This document shows positions 15,638 to 25,170 of a stretch of 41,911 nucleotides of DNA, piece by piece. Location: the NCBI RefSeq assembly GCF_905250085.1, contig NZ_CAJNOB010000010.1, positions 1-41,911 of the forward strand, written 5' to 3'. The notes under the pieces are model-generated. The model was not told where the DNA came from and did no database searches. It worked only from the letters and a program-made list of their open reading frames with translations. The position numbers were made by a program, and so were the translations under genes. Source of the stretch: Candidatus Methylacidithermus pantelleriae. GTDB taxonomy: Bacteria > Verrucomicrobiota > Verrucomicrobiia > Methylacidiphilales > Methylacidiphilaceae. The first letter of the stretch is position 1; each line of letters starts with the position of its first letter.

Positions 15638-16351
15638 ATGGCGGGCCGGTTGAGCCGGTGGGAGTCGTCCGCCCGGGAGGCTGTCGTGGAGGACCAGCCA
15701 GGCGAGGGGTTGGGCCCCTTGCGGGTGCTAACGACCTTTGTGCTTCTTGTGGTGGCTCATCTGGTAGCGATCTGGCTGGTCTCTTCCTGGAAGTGGGTCG
15801 AGCAAAACCCCTGGGTTCGGCGCGCGCTAGGGGTGGTAACACCGAGGGCCGGATCTTCTGCGAGCTTGGCTTCCTCGGTGCATGGGAACTGGAAGGGAGC
15901 TGCCAGCCGTGAGTCGTTTGCCACCTACCGGGTCAGTTCTGGGGATACGCTGGCAGGAATTGCGCGCAAGTTCGGAGTCAAAGTGGAGGAGTTACGAGAG
16001 CTTAATCACCTTCCCAATGGGCAACTCCGGGTGGGCGAGCGGATTGTATTGCCCAGGGGAGCGCGGTGGCAAGAGAAGTTGCAAGCCCCCTCTTTGCAGG
16101 AATCCTCTGGCCTTTGGGTTGTCTACACTGTGCGGCGGGGGGACACGTTGCAGAAAATCGCCCGGAAAACGGGATGTTCGGTGCGGTTTTTAATGAAAAA
16201 AAACGGCATCCAGGATCCCCGGAGGCTTTCGGTGGGCCAGAGGCTTTGGGTACCGAAAGGGAAAAAATCGTCTCCTCCACCAACGGAAGGTAACGGGCTT
16301 TCGGGGAAAGGGAATCCGGCAACGGGGACACCGGGAAAGAAAGGGGCATAG
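15638..16351 (+). CDS. Membrane-anchored protein with two LysM domains
   Basis: A 237-residue protein with a short cytoplasmic N-terminus, one membrane segment (about residues 29-48), then two LysM modules. The first runs from TYRVSSGDTLAGIARKFG and the second from VYTVRRGDTLQKIARKTG. A Pro/Gly/Lys-rich tail follows. LysM domains bind GlcNAc-containing glycans such as peptidoglycan, so the modules are probably periplasmic. It has a strong GGGAGGGG ribosome-binding site. It occupies the usual murD position between mraY and ftsW, so a role in septal wall placement is reasonable inference, not proven. It is not related to MurD. Confidence 0.88.
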   Translation: MAGRLSRWESSAREAVVEDQPGEGLGPLRVLTTFVLLVVAHLVAIWLVSSWKWVEQNPWVRRALGVVTPRAGSSASLASSVHGNWKGAASRESFATYRVSSGDTLAGIARKFGVKVEELRELNHLPNGQLRVGERIVLPRGARWQEKLQAPSLQESSGLWVVYTVRRGDTLQKIARKTGCSVRFLMKKNGIQDPRRLSVGQRLWVPKGKKSSPPPTEGNGLSGKGNPATGTPGKKGA

Positions 16352-17518: not shown

Positions 17519-18615
17519 ACCACGGGCGCTGGATCATTGCGTGCGGAGGCACGGGTGGGCACCTCTATCCGGGGGTCGCCGTGGCGCAGGAGCTCCGCAA
17601 AAGGGGGCATCTTGCAATGCTTTTGGTTTCTTCCAAGGCGATTGATGGGGAAATTCTTCGTGCCCATCCTGACCTTCCTGCTCGGGCTCTACCCGCCATG
17701 GGTTGGCCTGGGTGGAAGAGTCCCAAGCTCCTTCCCTTTGCCTGGTCCGTGGTTCGAACCGTAAGGGAATGCCAGCGCATTTTCCGGGATTTTGCTCCCA
17801 ACGGTGTGCTCGCCATGGGAGGGTTTACGGGGTTGGTGCCCCTGTGGCTGGGTAAGCGGCAAAACTTACCCATTTTTCTGCACGAAGCCAATGCCAAGCC
17901 AGGGAAGCTTACCCAACTGTGGGCAAGACACGTGGATCGCGTGTTTTTGGGTAACGATCGTTGCCGGACGTTTTTACCCAAGGCCAAGGTAACTTTTACG
18001 GGCAATCCGATCCGGGAGGGACTCGTCCGCCTGGATCGTGAGCAAGCTGCCCGGCGTCTTGGGCTTTCCGCCCAGCGCCAAACGCTCCTCATCATGGGGG
18101 GAAGTCAGGGGGCTGTGGGAATCAATTCGCTCCTGACGAGTTGCCTCCCCCTTTGGGGAGACAAGCGGGAAAAGTGGCAATGGATTCATCTTTGCGGTTT
18201 TAGCGATCTGGAGAGGTGCCAAAGAGCCTATGCAGAATATGGGCTAACCCACTGGGTGGCGCCTTTTAGCCGGGAGATGGCCGTCCTTTATAGCCTGGCC
18301 GATCTGGCCATCTGCCGGGCGGGTGCTGCCACGCTGGCGGAACTGGCGTACTACGGGATCGCATCGGTCTTGATTCCCTATCCGTTTGCCAGTGGGGACC
18401 ACCAGATGGAAAACGCCCGGAGCTTTGCGGAAGTGGGAGCAGCGCACGTGTTCCGGCAGGAAGAGCTAACGCCTGGCCTTTTGGACCGGGTGGTGCGGAC
18501 CATGTTAGAAGACCCCAGCGGGCTGGAGCGGATGAGGCAGGCTGCCGCAAGCCTTTCGGTTCCAGGAGCAGCCGCCAACATTGCGGAGGAATTGGAAAAA
18601 TGGATCCATCGGTAG
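17515..18615 (+). CDS. murG: UDP-GlcNAc:lipid I N-acetylglucosaminyltransferase
   Basis: MurG, a peripheral GT-B enzyme on the inner membrane face, makes lipid II. The N-terminal glycine-rich GGTGGHLYPG, HEANAKPGK, and the C-terminal donor-site region RAGAATLAEL followed by PYPFASGDHQ are intact. The ATG at 17515 overlaps the ftsW stop by 4 bases and gives 366 residues. The 13 codons upstream in frame lie within ftsW and are not family-like. The 3' end overlaps the murC start by 16 bases. Confidence 0.95.
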   Translation: MNHGRWIIACGGTGGHLYPGVAVAQELRKRGHLAMLLVSSKAIDGEILRAHPDLPARALPAMGWPGWKSPKLLPFAWSVVRTVRECQRIFRDFAPNGVLAMGGFTGLVPLWLGKRQNLPIFLHEANAKPGKLTQLWARHVDRVFLGNDRCRTFLPKAKVTFTGNPIREGLVRLDREQAARRLGLSAQRQTLLIMGGSQGAVGINSLLTSCLPLWGDKREKWQWIHLCGFSDLERCQRAYAEYGLTHWVAPFSREMAVLYSLADLAICRAGAATLAELAYYGIASVLIPYPFASGDHQMENARSFAEVGAAHVFRQEELTPGLLDRVVRTMLEDPSGLERMRQAAASLSVPGAAANIAEELEKWIHR

Positions 18616-20876
18616 CCTCGCTTCTCGCCACTCTCCTCGGCCGCCGGAGCACACGGATCCATCTGGTGGGGGTCGCGGGCGCCGGGATGAGTGCGCTGGC
18701 TCGCTTGCTTTTGGCCCGGGGTTATCCCGTTTCCGGTTCTGATCTTCGAAGCTCGCCCGCGGTAGAGGAACTGGTGGAAGAGGGACTAAGGTTTTGGGTC
18801 GGGCATTCGGAAAGCTCTCTCGAAGGGGTGGAGCTTCTTTGTTACTCCAGCGCGATTTCCACCGAGAACCCCGAGCGGGAGGCAGCGACACGACGGGGCA
18901 TTCCCCAGGTGCGCCGGGCGGAACTTTTGGCAGCTCTTGTTCGGGAAAAGAAAGCCGTCGTGGTCGCGGGAATGCACGGGAAAAGTACTACGGCCGCGCT
19001 TTTGGCTTTTGTGTTCCGTCACGCGGGGCTGGACCCTTCCTACTACGTGGGAGCGGAAGTGCCGAGTCTGGGTGCTTCGGCTCGATGGGGAAGCGGAGAC
19101 TATGTCGTGATCGAGGGGGATGAAAGTGATGGGACTCTTCTCTGTTTTGATCCCTTCCATGCGGTTGTTCTCAATATCGAGGAGGAACACCTCGATTACT
19201 ACCGTAGCCTAGAAGAGATTTTGCGAGTTTTCTCGCAGTTTGGTGCGAAGATCGCGGGCAAGCTCGTGTATTGCTCCGACGACCCGAATGCGTTTCTTCT
19301 CTATTCCTCTCAAGTCAAGGCGATTTCGGCTGGCCTGGGTGAGCGTGCGCGCTACCAGGCCAGAAAGGTTCGTTTGTCGGAGGATCGAAGCGCGTTTGAA
19401 ATCGTTCGAGAAGGGGAAAGCCTGGGAGATTTTGAGCTCTGGCTTCCGGGGATGCAAAACGTGTGCAATGCCGTCGTGGCTGCGGCCTTGGCTCTGGAAA
19501 TAGGGATGGAACCCGAAACGTTTCGGGAAGGGTTGCGGCTGTTTCGCGGGGCGCGCCGTCGCTTTGAGGTTTGCTGGCAGGGGCAGCAGTTCATGGTGGT
19601 GGACGATTATGCGCATCACCCCACCGAAATTCGGGCGACGCTGGCTGCTGCGCGCCTTTCCCGCTGGCCAAGGACGGTGGCTCTTTTCCAGCCTCATCGC
19701 TATTCGCGCACCAAGTTTCTCCAAGATCGTTTTGCCGAGGCTTTCCAAGACGCGGACCTGGTTTTTTTGACCGAAGTCTATGCGGCCAGCGAGCCTGTTT
19801 GGGAAGGGGTCAACGGGAAAAACCTGGCTCGGGCGGTCCGGGATTCCGGGCATCCGCGTGTCTTTTTTGAGCCCAATTTGGAAGCGCTTTTGCGCCGAGT
19901 GGCAAGCCACGTAAGGCCCGGAGATCTCATTGTGACGTTGGGGGCGGGAGACATTCACCGCTTGGCCGGCCGGCTCGCTCAAGGCCTTAGGCTCTGGGAA
20001 AGCTTACTTTCCTCCTTACCGGAAGGGACCAGGCTTGAGTGGTATGTCTCGATGGCATCACGGTTGGCCTTAGGGCTAGGAGGATGGGCGGAGTTCTGGT
20101 GCGAACCGGCCAGCGTTGCCGAGCTTGTGGCGGTGGTCCAAGCGACCCGGAGGGCGGGGCTTCCCATTCTCATTGCAGGATCGGGGACGACGATGCTTCC
20201 CCCCGACGAGGGGTTTCAAGGGGTGGTGGTTGCTCTTCGCCGGGGCGTTTTTCAAGAACTATCCTGGTCGAGCGACCGGTCGGTTGACGTCGGCGCAGGA
20301 GTTTTCGTTCGCGAGGTGGTCCAGAAGGCGCACGAAAGAAAGCTCGGTGGTTTTGGTCGCTTGTCACGATGGCCGGGCAGTGTCGGGGGTCTTTTAGCAA
20401 GCTGCCAGGAAAAGAGTCTTTGGAAAAGGGTTCGCCGCGCTTGGTGGGTGAGCGCGGAGGGAAAGTTCTGTCAGTGGGAAGGGGAAGGGCTGGGAAATTC
20501 CCCGGAAGGGATACAGGGGATCTGGGTTCGAGCCGAGCTCGTTTTGGAACCGGTTTCTGCGGACGTTTTGGCTGTTGAAACCCAAGAGTCAGGCTGCTCT
20601 CTCCTTTCGGACGAGCGCTCGGCAGCAAAAGCAGTCCTTGCCTTTGAGGATCTCCCGGGTGGTTCTCTAGACGAGCTTCTCCGGGAGCTCGGATGGGGAG
20701 GTCGCCGGTGCGGGAGGGTCTTCCTTCGGCCGGATCGCCCGACAATCGTCATTTGCGAGCCCGGGGCGAAGGTCAGCGAACTCCAAACCCTTTTGGAGGA
20801 GGTGTGCCGGAACGTTCACAGGGCAACGGGGCGGAAACTCGTCACCCGGTTCTGTGGCCCTACCGTTTTTTCATGA
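18600..20876 (+). CDS. murC: MurC (UDP-MurNAc:L-alanine ligase) fused to a degenerate MurB-like domain
   Basis: Residues 1 to about 465 are a complete MurC: GVAGAGMSALA at the N-terminus, the ATP loop GMHGKSTT (124-131), EGDESDGT, NIEEEHLDYY, DDYAHHPTEI and FQPHRYSRT. Residues from about 481 to 758 follow the MurB fold: SRLALGLGGWAEF, the FAD-site-like GSGTTMLPPDEGF (about 526) and WPGSVGGLL (about 590). The MurB half then loses what the family needs. The NAGA segment after VGG is absent, there is no YRxS segment, no SAGSxFxNP segment, and the final LExEVR-type Glu motif reads LVTRFCG. I infer an active MurC with a probably inactive MurB-like appendage that may bind a nucleotide or UDP-sugar. 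The start ATG lies within the end of murG. Confidence 0.9.
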   Translation: MDPSVASLLATLLGRRSTRIHLVGVAGAGMSALARLLLARGYPVSGSDLRSSPAVEELVEEGLRFWVGHSESSLEGVELLCYSSAISTENPEREAATRRGIPQVRRAELLAALVREKKAVVVAGMHGKSTTAALLAFVFRHAGLDPSYYVGAEVPSLGASARWGSGDYVVIEGDESDGTLLCFDPFHAVVLNIEEEHLDYYRSLEEILRVFSQFGAKIAGKLVYCSDDPNAFLLYSSQVKAISAGLGERARYQARKVRLSEDRSAFEIVREGESLGDFELWLPGMQNVCNAVVAAALALEIGMEPETFREGLRLFRGARRRFEVCWQGQQFMVVDDYAHHPTEIRATLAAARLSRWPRTVALFQPHRYSRTKFLQDRFAEAFQDADLVFLTEVYAASEPVWEGVNGKNLARAVRDSGHPRVFFEPNLEALLRRVASHVRPGDLIVTLGAGDIHRLAGRLAQGLRLWESLLSSLPEGTRLEWYVSMASRLALGLGGWAEFWCEPASVAELVAVVQATRRAGLPILIAGSGTTMLPPDEGFQGVVVALRRGVFQELSWSSDRSVDVGAGVFVREVVQKAHERKLGGFGRLSRWPGSVGGLLASCQEKSLWKRVRRAWWVSAEGKFCQWEGEGLGNSPEGIQGIWVRAELVLEPVSADVLAVETQESGCSLLSDERSAAKAVLAFEDLPGGSLDELLRELGWGGRRCGRVFLRPDRPTIVICEPGAKVSELQTLLEEVCRNVHRATGRKLVTRFCGPTVFS

Positions 20877-21781: not shown

Positions 21782-22642
21782 ATGGCACTGGCTAAGCGCA
21801 AGCGTCTTCCAGTCGAGCAGCAAGAGAACCTTTTGTGGACCAAAACGAGCCGGGCGTTTCGCAAGCAACAGGCAGCCGGTTGGGTAACACGAACGGTTCG
21901 CTGGCTCCTTTTTACGGGGTTGGTGAGCTTGGCTGTATACGAGTCAGGTTCCTATCTTTTGGACCGCGTTTTCTACGAAAATCCCAGATATCGGCTTCGG
22001 GAGATCCTCGTAGAAAACAAGGATCCAAACCGGGTGGCCCAGGTTGTGGCGGCCAGCGGGCTCAAACAGGGCCAGAGTGTACTGCGGATTGATCTTCAAG
22101 AAGTGGAAAGGCGGGTGGAGAGCCTTGCCTTTGTGGAACGGGCTTTGGTGGAGCGTAGGCTTCCCGATCGAATTGTGATCCGGATCACGGAACGTATCCC
22201 CGTAGCCAAATTTGCCGTACCCGGCCCGCATGGGACCATTAAAGAGATCTTGCTCATTGATCGGGAAGGAACGGTCATCCGGCCACGGGACCTTGAGATG
22301 GTCCGGGAACTTCCGGAAATTGTCGGGTTTCGGGCAACTCTTTGGCCCCCCGGTTCTCGCATTGAGGATCCCCAGGTGCGGGCGGCTTTGGCTTTGCTTG
22401 CGGCCTTGGAACTTTCGCCCTTACGGGCGCAGTTTGACCCGATGAAAGTGGATGTGTCCCGGCCTTTGTCCCTTTGGGTCATGACGTGGCAAGGGTGTCG
22501 GGTGGGTTTTCTACCGGGGCGGTTTGAGGAGCAGCTGGAACGGCTGGGTCGGATTCTGTCCTTTTCCGAGAGTCGTGGGCGGAAGCTGGCGAGTGTGGAT
22601 TTGACCTTGGAGCGGAACGTTCCGGTAACGTTCCGAAACTAG
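21782..22642 (+). CDS. ftsQ: Cell division protein FtsQ
   Basis: A bitopic divisome protein that links early and late division proteins with FtsL. It has a basic cytoplasmic tail, one membrane segment (about residues 39-60), then a POTRA domain starting YRLREILVENK and ending near ERIPVAKFAV, and a beta domain. Length is 286. AAGGGG lies about 8 bases before the ATG. FtsQ is poorly conserved, so the name rests on the POTRA, topology and position between ddl and ftsA. Confidence 0.88.
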   Translation: MALAKRKRLPVEQQENLLWTKTSRAFRKQQAAGWVTRTVRWLLFTGLVSLAVYESGSYLLDRVFYENPRYRLREILVENKDPNRVAQVVAASGLKQGQSVLRIDLQEVERRVESLAFVERALVERRLPDRIVIRITERIPVAKFAVPGPHGTIKEILLIDREGTVIRPRDLEMVRELPEIVGFRATLWPPGSRIEDPQVRAALALLAALELSPLRAQFDPMKVDVSRPLSLWVMTWQGCRVGFLPGRFEEQLERLGRILSFSESRGRKLASVDLTLERNVPVTFRN

Positions 22643-22683
22643 TGAGGCAAACCGGAAAACGGGAAAGGAAAAAGGAGGCAACG

Positions 22684-23910
22684 GTGTTCTGGAAAAAAGA
22701 TACGGACATTTTGGTAGCCATGGAAATTGGCTCCAGCAAGGTTGCGGTGGCCGTCGGGGAGCTTCGTACGGACTCCAATTTGACCCTTTTAGGGGTAGGG
22801 GAGCGCCCGTCGAGTCAGGTACGGAAACGGGAAATTGTCGACTTTGAAATTGCCCAGCGTTGCGTGCATGACGCGATTGTGGATGCGGAAGAAAAGACCG
22901 ACACCGCAGTGAAAGAGGTGTATCTGGCAATTTCCGGAGCACATGTGCGCTCTACGAATCGCCGGGTGACCCTTGCCCTAGAGGGGGGACGAACGGAAAT
23001 CGAAAACCGGCACGTGGAACAATTGCGCAAGCTGGCCCGGCAATTACCCCTGCCTGCGGGTTATGTGTTATTGCATGACCTTTTGCAGCAGTACTCACTG
23101 GATGATGGTTCGGTTACCCTCAATCCGGTTGGGCTTTGTTCCAAGCGGCTGACGGCTGATTATCACCTGGTTTTTGGGATTGCGACGCGACTCCAAACGA
23201 CCATCCGGTGTGTGAAGGAGTTGTCGATCGAGGTCAAAAACTATGCCCTATCCTCCTACGCGACGGCGCAGGCGGTTCTTTTACCCGACCAGAAGGAAAT
23301 GGGTGCAATGGTGATCGATTGTGGAGCCGGGGTGACCGATTACATCGTTTATGTACGAGGCTCCGTGGTCCACAGTGGGATTCTTGGGGTGGGAGGTGAC
23401 CACTTGACCAATGATCTGGCGGTCGGGCTGGGGCTTCCTTTTGCCACGGCGGAAGAGCTCAAAAAGACCCACGGATCGGTCGTGGCGAGCACTAAGGAAA
23501 AGCGACAACGGGTTGTCATTCCTCCTTCACCGGAACATGGGGAAATTCATGTTCGCAAGGAAGCCATTGTCACGATTCTTCGCGCACGGCAACAGGAGAT
23601 CTTTGAAATCATTCGGGAGGATGTGGAATCGCAGCCCTTCTGGTCCGGCTGGAGCGGCCAGATTTTCGTAACGGGTGGTGGATCGCTCCTGCCCGGAATT
23701 GAAGAATTGGCTACGGAAGTCTTCCGGCATCCGGTTGAGCGGGCCGTTCCGGTTCCAATGGATGGGGATCAAGAACTGGTGCGCCGACCTCAGCTGGCCA
23801 CTGTGCTGGGTCTTTTACAGTATGCGCGGGTTGCGGAGCTCCAGGAAATCCCTTCGCGCGGGTGGCGTTCCCGGTTCCAGCGAGTGCTGGCGGGGATGCG
23901 TTTGTTCTAA
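22684..23910 (+). CDS. ftsA: Cell division protein FtsA
   Basis: An actin-like ATPase that tethers FtsZ filaments to the membrane. Motifs seen are MEIGSSKVAVAVGE (phosphate 1), the 1C domain with ISGAHVRS, VIDCGAGVTDY (phosphate 2), GGDHLTNDLA and TGGGSLLPGI (adenosine). The C-terminal WRSRFQRVLAGMRLF looks like the amphipathic membrane-targeting helix. I chose the GTG at 22684 because a perfect AGGAGG (22673-22678) lies 5 bases upstream. The frame is open to 22642. The protein looks normal, in contrast with its FtsZ neighbour. Confidence 0.95.
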   Translation: MFWKKDTDILVAMEIGSSKVAVAVGELRTDSNLTLLGVGERPSSQVRKREIVDFEIAQRCVHDAIVDAEEKTDTAVKEVYLAISGAHVRSTNRRVTLALEGGRTEIENRHVEQLRKLARQLPLPAGYVLLHDLLQQYSLDDGSVTLNPVGLCSKRLTADYHLVFGIATRLQTTIRCVKELSIEVKNYALSSYATAQAVLLPDQKEMGAMVIDCGAGVTDYIVYVRGSVVHSGILGVGGDHLTNDLAVGLGLPFATAEELKKTHGSVVASTKEKRQRVVIPPSPEHGEIHVRKEAIVTILRARQQEIFEIIREDVESQPFWSGWSGQIFVTGGGSLLPGIEELATEVFRHPVERAVPVPMDGDQELVRRPQLATVLGLLQYARVAELQEIPSRGWRSRFQRVLAGMRLF

Positions 23911-23943: not shown

Positions 23944-25170
23944 ATGCAAGGACAAACCAATGGCAGAAGTGATTCGGAGAAAGGCCAAAGGAGCGTGTCC
24001 CTTCTGGGCCTTGGGAAAATGGGTGTGTCCGTGCTCGACCGGGCCATTTTGGCCGGAATGAATCCGCAGCAAATGACTGCGGTCGATACGGATCGTTTTG
24101 TATTGGAGGGAAGTCTTGCGCAACGGCGCATCCTTTTAGGCAAGGAACGAACACGAGGTTTGGGATCGTTTGGCGATCGTGAGCTAACCCGCAAGCTCAT
24201 TGAGAATAGCACGGAACCCTTGCAAGCTCTGCTTCCCGAAGGGGGAGATCTTCTCATGGTGGCATCGTTAGGTGGGACAACGGGTAGTGAGCTTGCCCGG
24301 TTTTTTTCTGCGCAAGCCAAGGACCGAGGGATCCGAATGACGCTCGTGGCATTAACCCCTTTTTCCTTTGAACCACAGGCTCGAAAGGAAGAGGCCTGGC
24401 GCCTGGCTCAGGAATTAGGGGGCTCGGTTGATTGCTTGTGCGTTCTTTCCCAGCTGGCCATGGAGTCATGGGACGTTTTTTCGGACAATTTCCCTTCGGC
24501 TATGGATCGATGGGACCGGATGGTTGCGGAGGTGGTTTTCAGTTTCTGTCATGTGCTGGAAGAACGGGACTTTCCCTCCCTGACGCCCTGGGAACTTTGT
24601 CGCTTTTTTGCCCGTTGTGGTTTTGGAGAGGAGGGAAATGGGGTCGGAGGTTTTGCGGAAGCGGGGATAGGGCCGGCCATGACCGAGCGGCTCGTGAACG
24701 AGGTAATGGATAGGCTCCCCGCGACGGAGAAGTTCCCCTGGAGTTCAGCTCCCGAATACTTTGCCTGCCTGACTGTGGCGGAAGATCCTCCAATCAGCTT
24801 CGTTCGAGAGTTGGAACGAAAGCTGAGTAATCGAGTTGGACCTAGCGCCCGGCTGCGTTTGAGTATTACGTTAGAACCTCAGCGGAAGGATCGGGCTAAG
24901 CTCTTGGTTCTCTTTCCCCTTCCTACTTCCTCTTCTCTCAAGGCCTTTGGCCTGGCAAGTCCTTCCGTTCCGGAGGCGACCCCAGAGGAACCGGTACCTA
25001 CCCTTACACCAGCGGCTGAGATGGCAGTAACCCTCGGCCAGTCCAGCCAGCAAGAGCTACCGATTGTTCCCGCCGGGGGAAGGTTTGAACGAATTGCTGC
25101 CACCGTGTACAAGGGGCAGAACCTGGACGTACCGACGTTTCGGCGCCGCAATTTGACGGTGCGAATGTAG
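23944..25170 (+). CDS. ftsZ: Divergent FtsZ-like tubulin-fold protein
   Basis: The order and many short blocks match FtsZ: AVDTD (46-50), TRGLG (70-74), PFSFEP (139-144), and a C-terminal LDVPTFRRR resembling the FtsA-binding peptide. Key nucleotide residues differ. The T1 loop, normally rich in Gly with an Asn, reads GLGKMGVS (22-29). The tubulin signature GGGTGTG reads GGTTGSE (110-116). The T7 synergy loop, normally NxDFAD, reads SLTPWE (212-217), so the catalytic Asp pair is not conserved. The usual guanine-contact PNDRL reads SQLAM. It may bind GTP weakly or not hydrolyse it. Position after ftsA, an AAGGAAG ribosome-binding site and 408 residues support a real gene. Whether it is the only FtsZ of the cell cannot be told from the window. 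Confidence 0.85.
   Translation: MQGQTNGRSDSEKGQRSVSLLGLGKMGVSVLDRAILAGMNPQQMTAVDTDRFVLEGSLAQRRILLGKERTRGLGSFGDRELTRKLIENSTEPLQALLPEGGDLLMVASLGGTTGSELARFFSAQAKDRGIRMTLVALTPFSFEPQARKEEAWRLAQELGGSVDCLCVLSQLAMESWDVFSDNFPSAMDRWDRMVAEVVFSFCHVLEERDFPSLTPWELCRFFARCGFGEEGNGVGGFAEAGIGPAMTERLVNEVMDRLPATEKFPWSSAPEYFACLTVAEDPPISFVRELERKLSNRVGPSARLRLSITLEPQRKDRAKLLVLFPLPTSSSLKAFGLASPSVPEATPEEPVPTLTPAAEMAVTLGQSSQQELPIVPAGGRFERIAATVYKGQNLDVPTFRRRNLTVRM

Follow-up and report, generated by a model that had tools for sequence, protein, structure and literature searches.

The sole FtsZ of Candidatus Methylacidithermus pantelleriae combines a divergent T7 loop with a conserved FtsA-binding tail

FtsZ treadmilling, powered by GTP hydrolysis, is generally believed to set the pace of septal wall synthesis, and in model species mutations of the T7 Asp and Asn residues inactivate the protein. 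The window analyzed here, a 41,911-nt stretch of Candidatus Methylacidithermus pantelleriae DNA, encodes an FtsZ-like protein with altered GTP-binding and T7 loops, raising the question of whether it is the FtsZ of this organism and, if so, how it could function. The gene is an intact ORF directly 3′ of ftsA, with an ATG start and an AAGGA-like site upstream:

21782-22642, + strand: ftsQ-like gene (POTRA_1, E=4.3e-12)
22642-23910, + strand: canonical ftsA (TIGR01174, 299.3 bits, cut-off 175.85)
23944-25170, + strand: divergent ftsZ, 408 aa, the sole tubulin/FtsZ-family gene of the genome (PF00091, TIGR00065, AlphaFold2 fold)

The C-terminus of FtsA is an amphipathic membrane-targeting stretch (SRGWRSRFQRVLAGMRLF), and the TIGR01174 score lies well over the cut-off, bearing out the description of this FtsA in the first-pass annotation as normal and retaining its membrane helix. 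The same annotation placed ftsZ in an otherwise complete dcw cluster, which is inexact: murD is encoded on another contig (G000:C23:54174-55436), and a LysM-domain gene (15638-16351, + strand) sits between mraY and ftsW, the place of murD in E. coli. A single 758-aa ORF (18600-20876, + strand) encodes MurC with a MurB-like (FAD-binding) domain fused to its C-terminal end, the MurB part scoring far under its family cut-offs. As the ddl ORF (20693) overlaps the end of this fusion ORF, ddl probably starts later.

The window protein matches the Pfam tubulin/FtsZ GTPase domain PF00091 (58.8 bits, cut-off 33, E=1.2e-15). Against the NCBIfam ftsZ equivalog TIGR00065 it reaches 65.6 bits, below the cut-off of 295.2, and it has no match to the Pfam FtsZ_C domain PF12327 at E 0.1, a domain that does match the order relatives L127 and L139. 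The missing PF12327 match and the distance from the TIGR00065 cut-off indicate that more than the loops has diverged. An AlphaFold2 model built from a 15-sequence alignment (mean pLDDT 69.5) nevertheless displays the full FtsZ fold, with a GTPase domain, H7, a C-terminal domain, a low-confidence linker and a short terminal helix, so the C-terminal domain is present even though Pfam misses it. In the VIA comparison with B. subtilis FtsZ (2VAM), 301 residues align with Z 30.6 at 19% identity, and the fold spans aa 16-327. The model was also run through Foldseek. Among the CetZ and FtsZ structures compared, the two CetZ entries score Z 25.6 and 24.5 versus 30 for bacterial FtsZ, and PF13809 (Pfam Tubulin_2, FtsZl1) has no match anywhere in the genome.

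The protein thus lacks four features of canonical FtsZ (a TIGR00065 score over the cut-off, PF12327, the T7 NxDxxD and the T4 GGGTGTG) and has those of an FtsZ ortholog, namely the GTPase domain, the two-domain fold, the ftsA neighbor, the single copy and the C-terminal peptide (GQNLDVPTFRRR). In the tree, it is nested inside the FtsZ clade of its order. We conclude that it is a vertically inherited FtsZ ortholog and the only one of the organism. A chance or frameshifted ORF is ruled out by the PF00091 E-value, the complete FtsZ fold and the presence of the same gene at the same place in relatives.

The genome assembly (71 contigs, 2.46 Mb, 99.91% complete) contains one PF00091 match, and searches with PF00091 at E up to 10, with PF13809 and at the protein level found no second FtsZ or tubulin in it. 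Family members with a PF00091 match likewise have one per genome, six single-contig genomes among them. The suggestion that this protein partners another FtsZ is therefore unsupported, no second FtsZ/tubulin-family gene having turned up in this or the searched family genomes. For SepF, the genome yields just a sub-threshold match with stops inside; with no SepF over the cut-off, FtsA is likely the sole tether of FtsZ. The genome also has one MreB and one match to the ammonia/methane mono-oxygenase family PF02461.

In the search for related loci, the window FtsZ as a single-protein query returned nothing, and an alignment query returned 14 loci. At the search threshold, 11 of the other 12 family genomes carry an intact ftsZ ORF free of internal stops. 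In the twelfth (G010, in sister genus g3), PF00091 finds nothing at E 0.001; there, a C-terminal stretch alone matches the window FtsZ (G010:C9:18932-19261), in a 248-aa open frame, to be explained either by a break in the assembly or by truncation of the gene. The two sister genera, g2 and g3, presumably correspond to Methylacidiphilum and Methylacidimicrobium.

We located the FtsZ motifs by alignment, with E. coli numbering as reference, and every motif quoted in the first-pass annotation, from T1 to the C-terminal peptide, was found in the ORF:

24007-24030, + strand: T1, GLGKMGVS, aa 22-29; G20/G21/N24 are K25/M26/S29
24079-24099, + strand: T2, AVDTDRF, aa 46-52; D45 is kept as D50, and Q47 is F52
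24271-24291, + strand: T4, GGTTGSE (canonical GGGTGTG), aa 110-116; G107 is T112 and G111 is E116
24358-24384, + strand: T5, PFSFEPQAR, aa 139-147; E138/R142 are kept as E143/R147
24577-24594, + strand: T7, SLTPWE, aa 212-217; N207/D209/D212 are S212/T214/E217
25072-25167, + strand: C-terminal conserved peptide region GRFERIAATVYKGQNLDVPTFRRRNLTVRM, the FtsA-binding tail, from about aa 377; near-invariant across the order

In T3 (TRGLG, aa 70-74), G69 is kept as G74 and G71 is replaced by F76; in T4, the glycines G106 and G109 are kept. The putative guanine contacts are altered (N165 to Q170, D187 to R192), so the protein may not even be specific for GTP. The tail peptide LDVPTFRRR lies at aa 394-402, in alignment columns that are invariant or nearly so across the order.

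Full alignments revealed no usual Asn or Asp displaced within T7, a possibility that the first-pass annotation had raised against its own reading, and no NxDxxD elsewhere in the H7/T7 region of the protein. The single acid left in T7 is Glu217, in the D212 column, and owing to this Glu the window FtsZ is not wholly devoid of T7 acids. The T7 acid of alpha-tubulin is also Glu. The AlphaFold2 model is of only moderate confidence here (pLDDT falls below 50 at 209-211 and averages 55-69 by block), and the placement of Glu217 rests on the sequence alignment.

In the S. aureus protein, the T7 residues D210 and D213 keep the catalytic water in place, N208 is a K+ ligand that also bridges to D46 and Q48 of the neighboring subunit, Q48 (E. 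coli Q47) together with N208 (N207) helps to hold K+, and R143 is arginine-finger-like; the T7 residues are conserved across species, and D46A, R143Q, N208L, D210N and D213N each alone suppress assembly (PMC8936486). Of the equivalent residues in the window FtsZ, D46 and R143 are kept, D213 is Glu, and N208, D210 and Q48 are lost. With all three T7 sites changed, the protein might not assemble at all. Poor or altered GTP hydrolysis, as the first-pass annotation had proposed, is plausible by analogy, because the equivalent S. aureus substitutions abolish assembly and the E. coli T7 mutant D212A keeps about 7% of its GTPase activity (as quoted in PMC8142252).

The T7 alteration extends beyond this gene. 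Among order relatives outside the family, where T7 aligns well, no sequence has N207 and a single one has D209; most families keep D212, and family f4 has Glu in its place. Exactly one T7 acid is found in 37/38 FtsZs from the rest of the order. In 67 FtsZs from other Verrucomicrobiota, the N/D/D triad is complete in 11, and positions 209 and 212 carry one acid in 53, two in 12 and none in 2. Some one-acid sequences keep D209 and lose D212 (LDFATL), while others show the reverse (IGFDDL). In the family, 9/12 FtsZs lack a T7 acid, although the zeros in g2 and g3, whose T7 loops are both unrecognizable, hinge on an uncertain alignment. None of the 11 FtsZs that lack a T7 acid has the glutamine Q47, compared with 11 of the 13 that have two; the T7 and Q47 figures are raw sequence counts that ignore kinship. 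Hence the T7 alteration is real, as first noted, and its apparent peculiarity to this gene is not, N207 and almost always D209 being gone order-wide.

The Methylacidiphilum-like genus has an invariant F-D pair (F202-D203 in the L033 protein) that lies a few residues before the aligned T7 position and, judging by sequence, could stand in for D209. The profile alignment of g2 to the order ended before T7; with this pair nearby, the absence of a T7 acid in that genus depends on the alignment. A distant FtsZ at L139:5989-7236 (DYRQ01000009.1; ~23% identity) has the conserved tail and the T7 region QTLDGRKL. Since the FtsA of this locus shares only 35% identity with the window FtsA, it seems to represent a distinct lineage in which T7 has eroded.

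The family forms a single clade in the FtsA tree (0.97) as well as in the FtsZ tree (0.95). On the FtsA topology, the ratio of FtsZ core to FtsA branch length is 3.14 in the family versus 1.1 elsewhere. In a model-free comparison at 50-60% FtsA identity, FtsZ core identity averages 23.5% among family members, 36.9% among the other members of the order and 44.9% beyond the order. The dN/dS values inside the sister genera are 0.22-0.36 (ftsZ) and 0.04-0.18 (ftsA), and selection on ftsZ there is relaxed yet clearly purifying. The single PF00091 match and these dN/dS values answer to a single divergent copy under purifying selection, the outcome that the first-pass annotation had named as support for a changed mechanism; as a single and intact gene, with purifying selection on its sister-genus counterparts, the window ftsZ cannot be read as a second copy or a pseudogene.

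The drift is uneven along the protein. Pairwise identity inside the sister genera is 0.71-0.79 in the nucleotide domain, 0.52-0.60 in the H7/T7/C-domain part, 0.33-0.39 in the linker and 0.86-0.87 in the C-terminal peptide. FtsA is much better kept than FtsZ, and the tail peptide is among the most conserved parts of FtsZ, in line with the earlier proposal that the FtsA-FtsZ interface is the conserved function.

Our preferred reading, to which we give a probability of roughly 0.6, is that this sole FtsZ is an FtsA-tethered division scaffold in which the GTP-hydrolysis half-site has been rewired and which probably binds GTP and hydrolyzes it slowly. We infer GTP binding, slow hydrolysis and filament formation from the pattern of kept and lost residues. 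The N-terminal domain has most likely kept its capacity to bind GTP, by way of the T1 glycines, D50 (Mg waters), the GG-TG core of T4, E143 and R147. The rewired half-site would comprise the T7 loop and the C-terminal "bottom" face, and slow hydrolysis would use Glu217, the counterpart of E. coli D212, as the remaining T7 acid. The protein would probably assemble into filaments or oligomers bound to FtsA, and the normal FtsA would hold it at the membrane via the frozen tail. The window FtsZ would stand near the end of a series in which one T7 acid is common across the phylum and the order is devoid of N207 and almost always of D209; the window's genus retains only the Glu, and the two sister genera have no recognizable T7.

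The chief rival, which we consider unlikely, is a catalytically dead and possibly non-polymerizing FtsZ that serves as a passive FtsA adaptor via its tail, with FtsA filaments and septal wall synthesis driving division. The unrecognizable T7 of the two sister genera would fit such a role, as would the loss of Q47 and G71, which face T7 in the filament, along with T7 itself, the drift of the bottom half beside a frozen tail, and the conserved, normal FtsA. However, a mere adaptor would not need the nucleotide domain, whose identity stays at 0.71-0.79 within genera, and Glu217, Asp50 and Arg147 remain in the window FtsZ. A further proposal, likewise unlikely in our view, is that the family divides with its sole FtsZ but without GTP hydrolysis or without canonical T7 polymerization, and hence with no GTP-driven treadmilling behind Z-ring function and septal wall synthesis; the one-acid state of the phylum would then have been the permissive step.

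It is improbable that ftsZ is decaying in a lineage moving toward FtsZ-less division, as in Planctomycetes and Chlamydiae. The strong rate acceleration, the observation of Hou et al. on M. infernorum (PMC2474590) and the loss of FtsZ in other branches of the PVC superphylum (PMC5147048) would agree with decay, but the ORF is intact in 11/12 other family genomes and partially matched in the twelfth, omega is well under 1 in the sister genera, and the C-terminal peptide is frozen. Escape from a phage or cellular inhibitor that binds the T7/bottom face, with full activity compensated, is very improbable: the H7/T7/C-domain half does change faster than the nucleotide half, and phage proteins attacking FtsZ are known (e.g., P1 Icd, PMC11897509), but whole-gene omega of 0.22-0.36 carries no sign of positive selection, and the drift is old and phylum-wide.

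Returning to the rewired, FtsA-tethered scaffold, several known systems offer comparisons. Canonical FtsZ (E. coli, B. subtilis, S. aureus) shares with the window FtsZ the fold, the place after ftsA, the nucleotide domain, D45, E138, R142 and the FtsA-binding peptide; the window protein differs in lacking N207, D209, Q47 and G71, in having Glu for D212 and in its ~19% identity over the fold. The gammaproteobacterial FtsZ of Candidatus Thiosymbion oneisti is described as a weak GTPase that does not polymerize in vitro and forms rings in cells (PMC8953583); judged by this description, the window FtsZ may work similarly. The T7 mutant AtFtsZ1 D275A retains about 15% of its GTPase activity (PMC8142252). 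Mutants of the D212A class are laboratory constructs and plants co-assemble two FtsZs, whereas the window FtsZ is one natural copy.

Closest is the FtsZ of Methylacidiphilum, by inference the same gene in the same family, although the window's genus retains more of T7 (the Glu) than the presumed Methylacidiphilum sequences do. Hou et al. remarked in 2008 (data not shown) that ftsZ evolution is accelerated in M. infernorum and that of ftsA and ftsK is not (PMC2474590), and a 2016 survey found M. infernorum FtsZ solely with an alternative query (PMC5147048). We found no residue-level account of a Methylacidiphilum-type FtsZ in the open literature searched. The residue-level T7 pattern thus appears to be new, whereas the acceleration had already been remarked upon and is now quantified.

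These are viable, partly cultured bacteria whose sole FtsZ lacks the canonical T7 residues, a warning that models of FtsZ built on T7 do not hold universally. Within one phylum, they belong to a natural series with two T7 acids at one end, one in the middle and none recognizable at the other end, and purified relatives along this series would make it possible to test which part of the FtsZ GTP cycle is indispensable.
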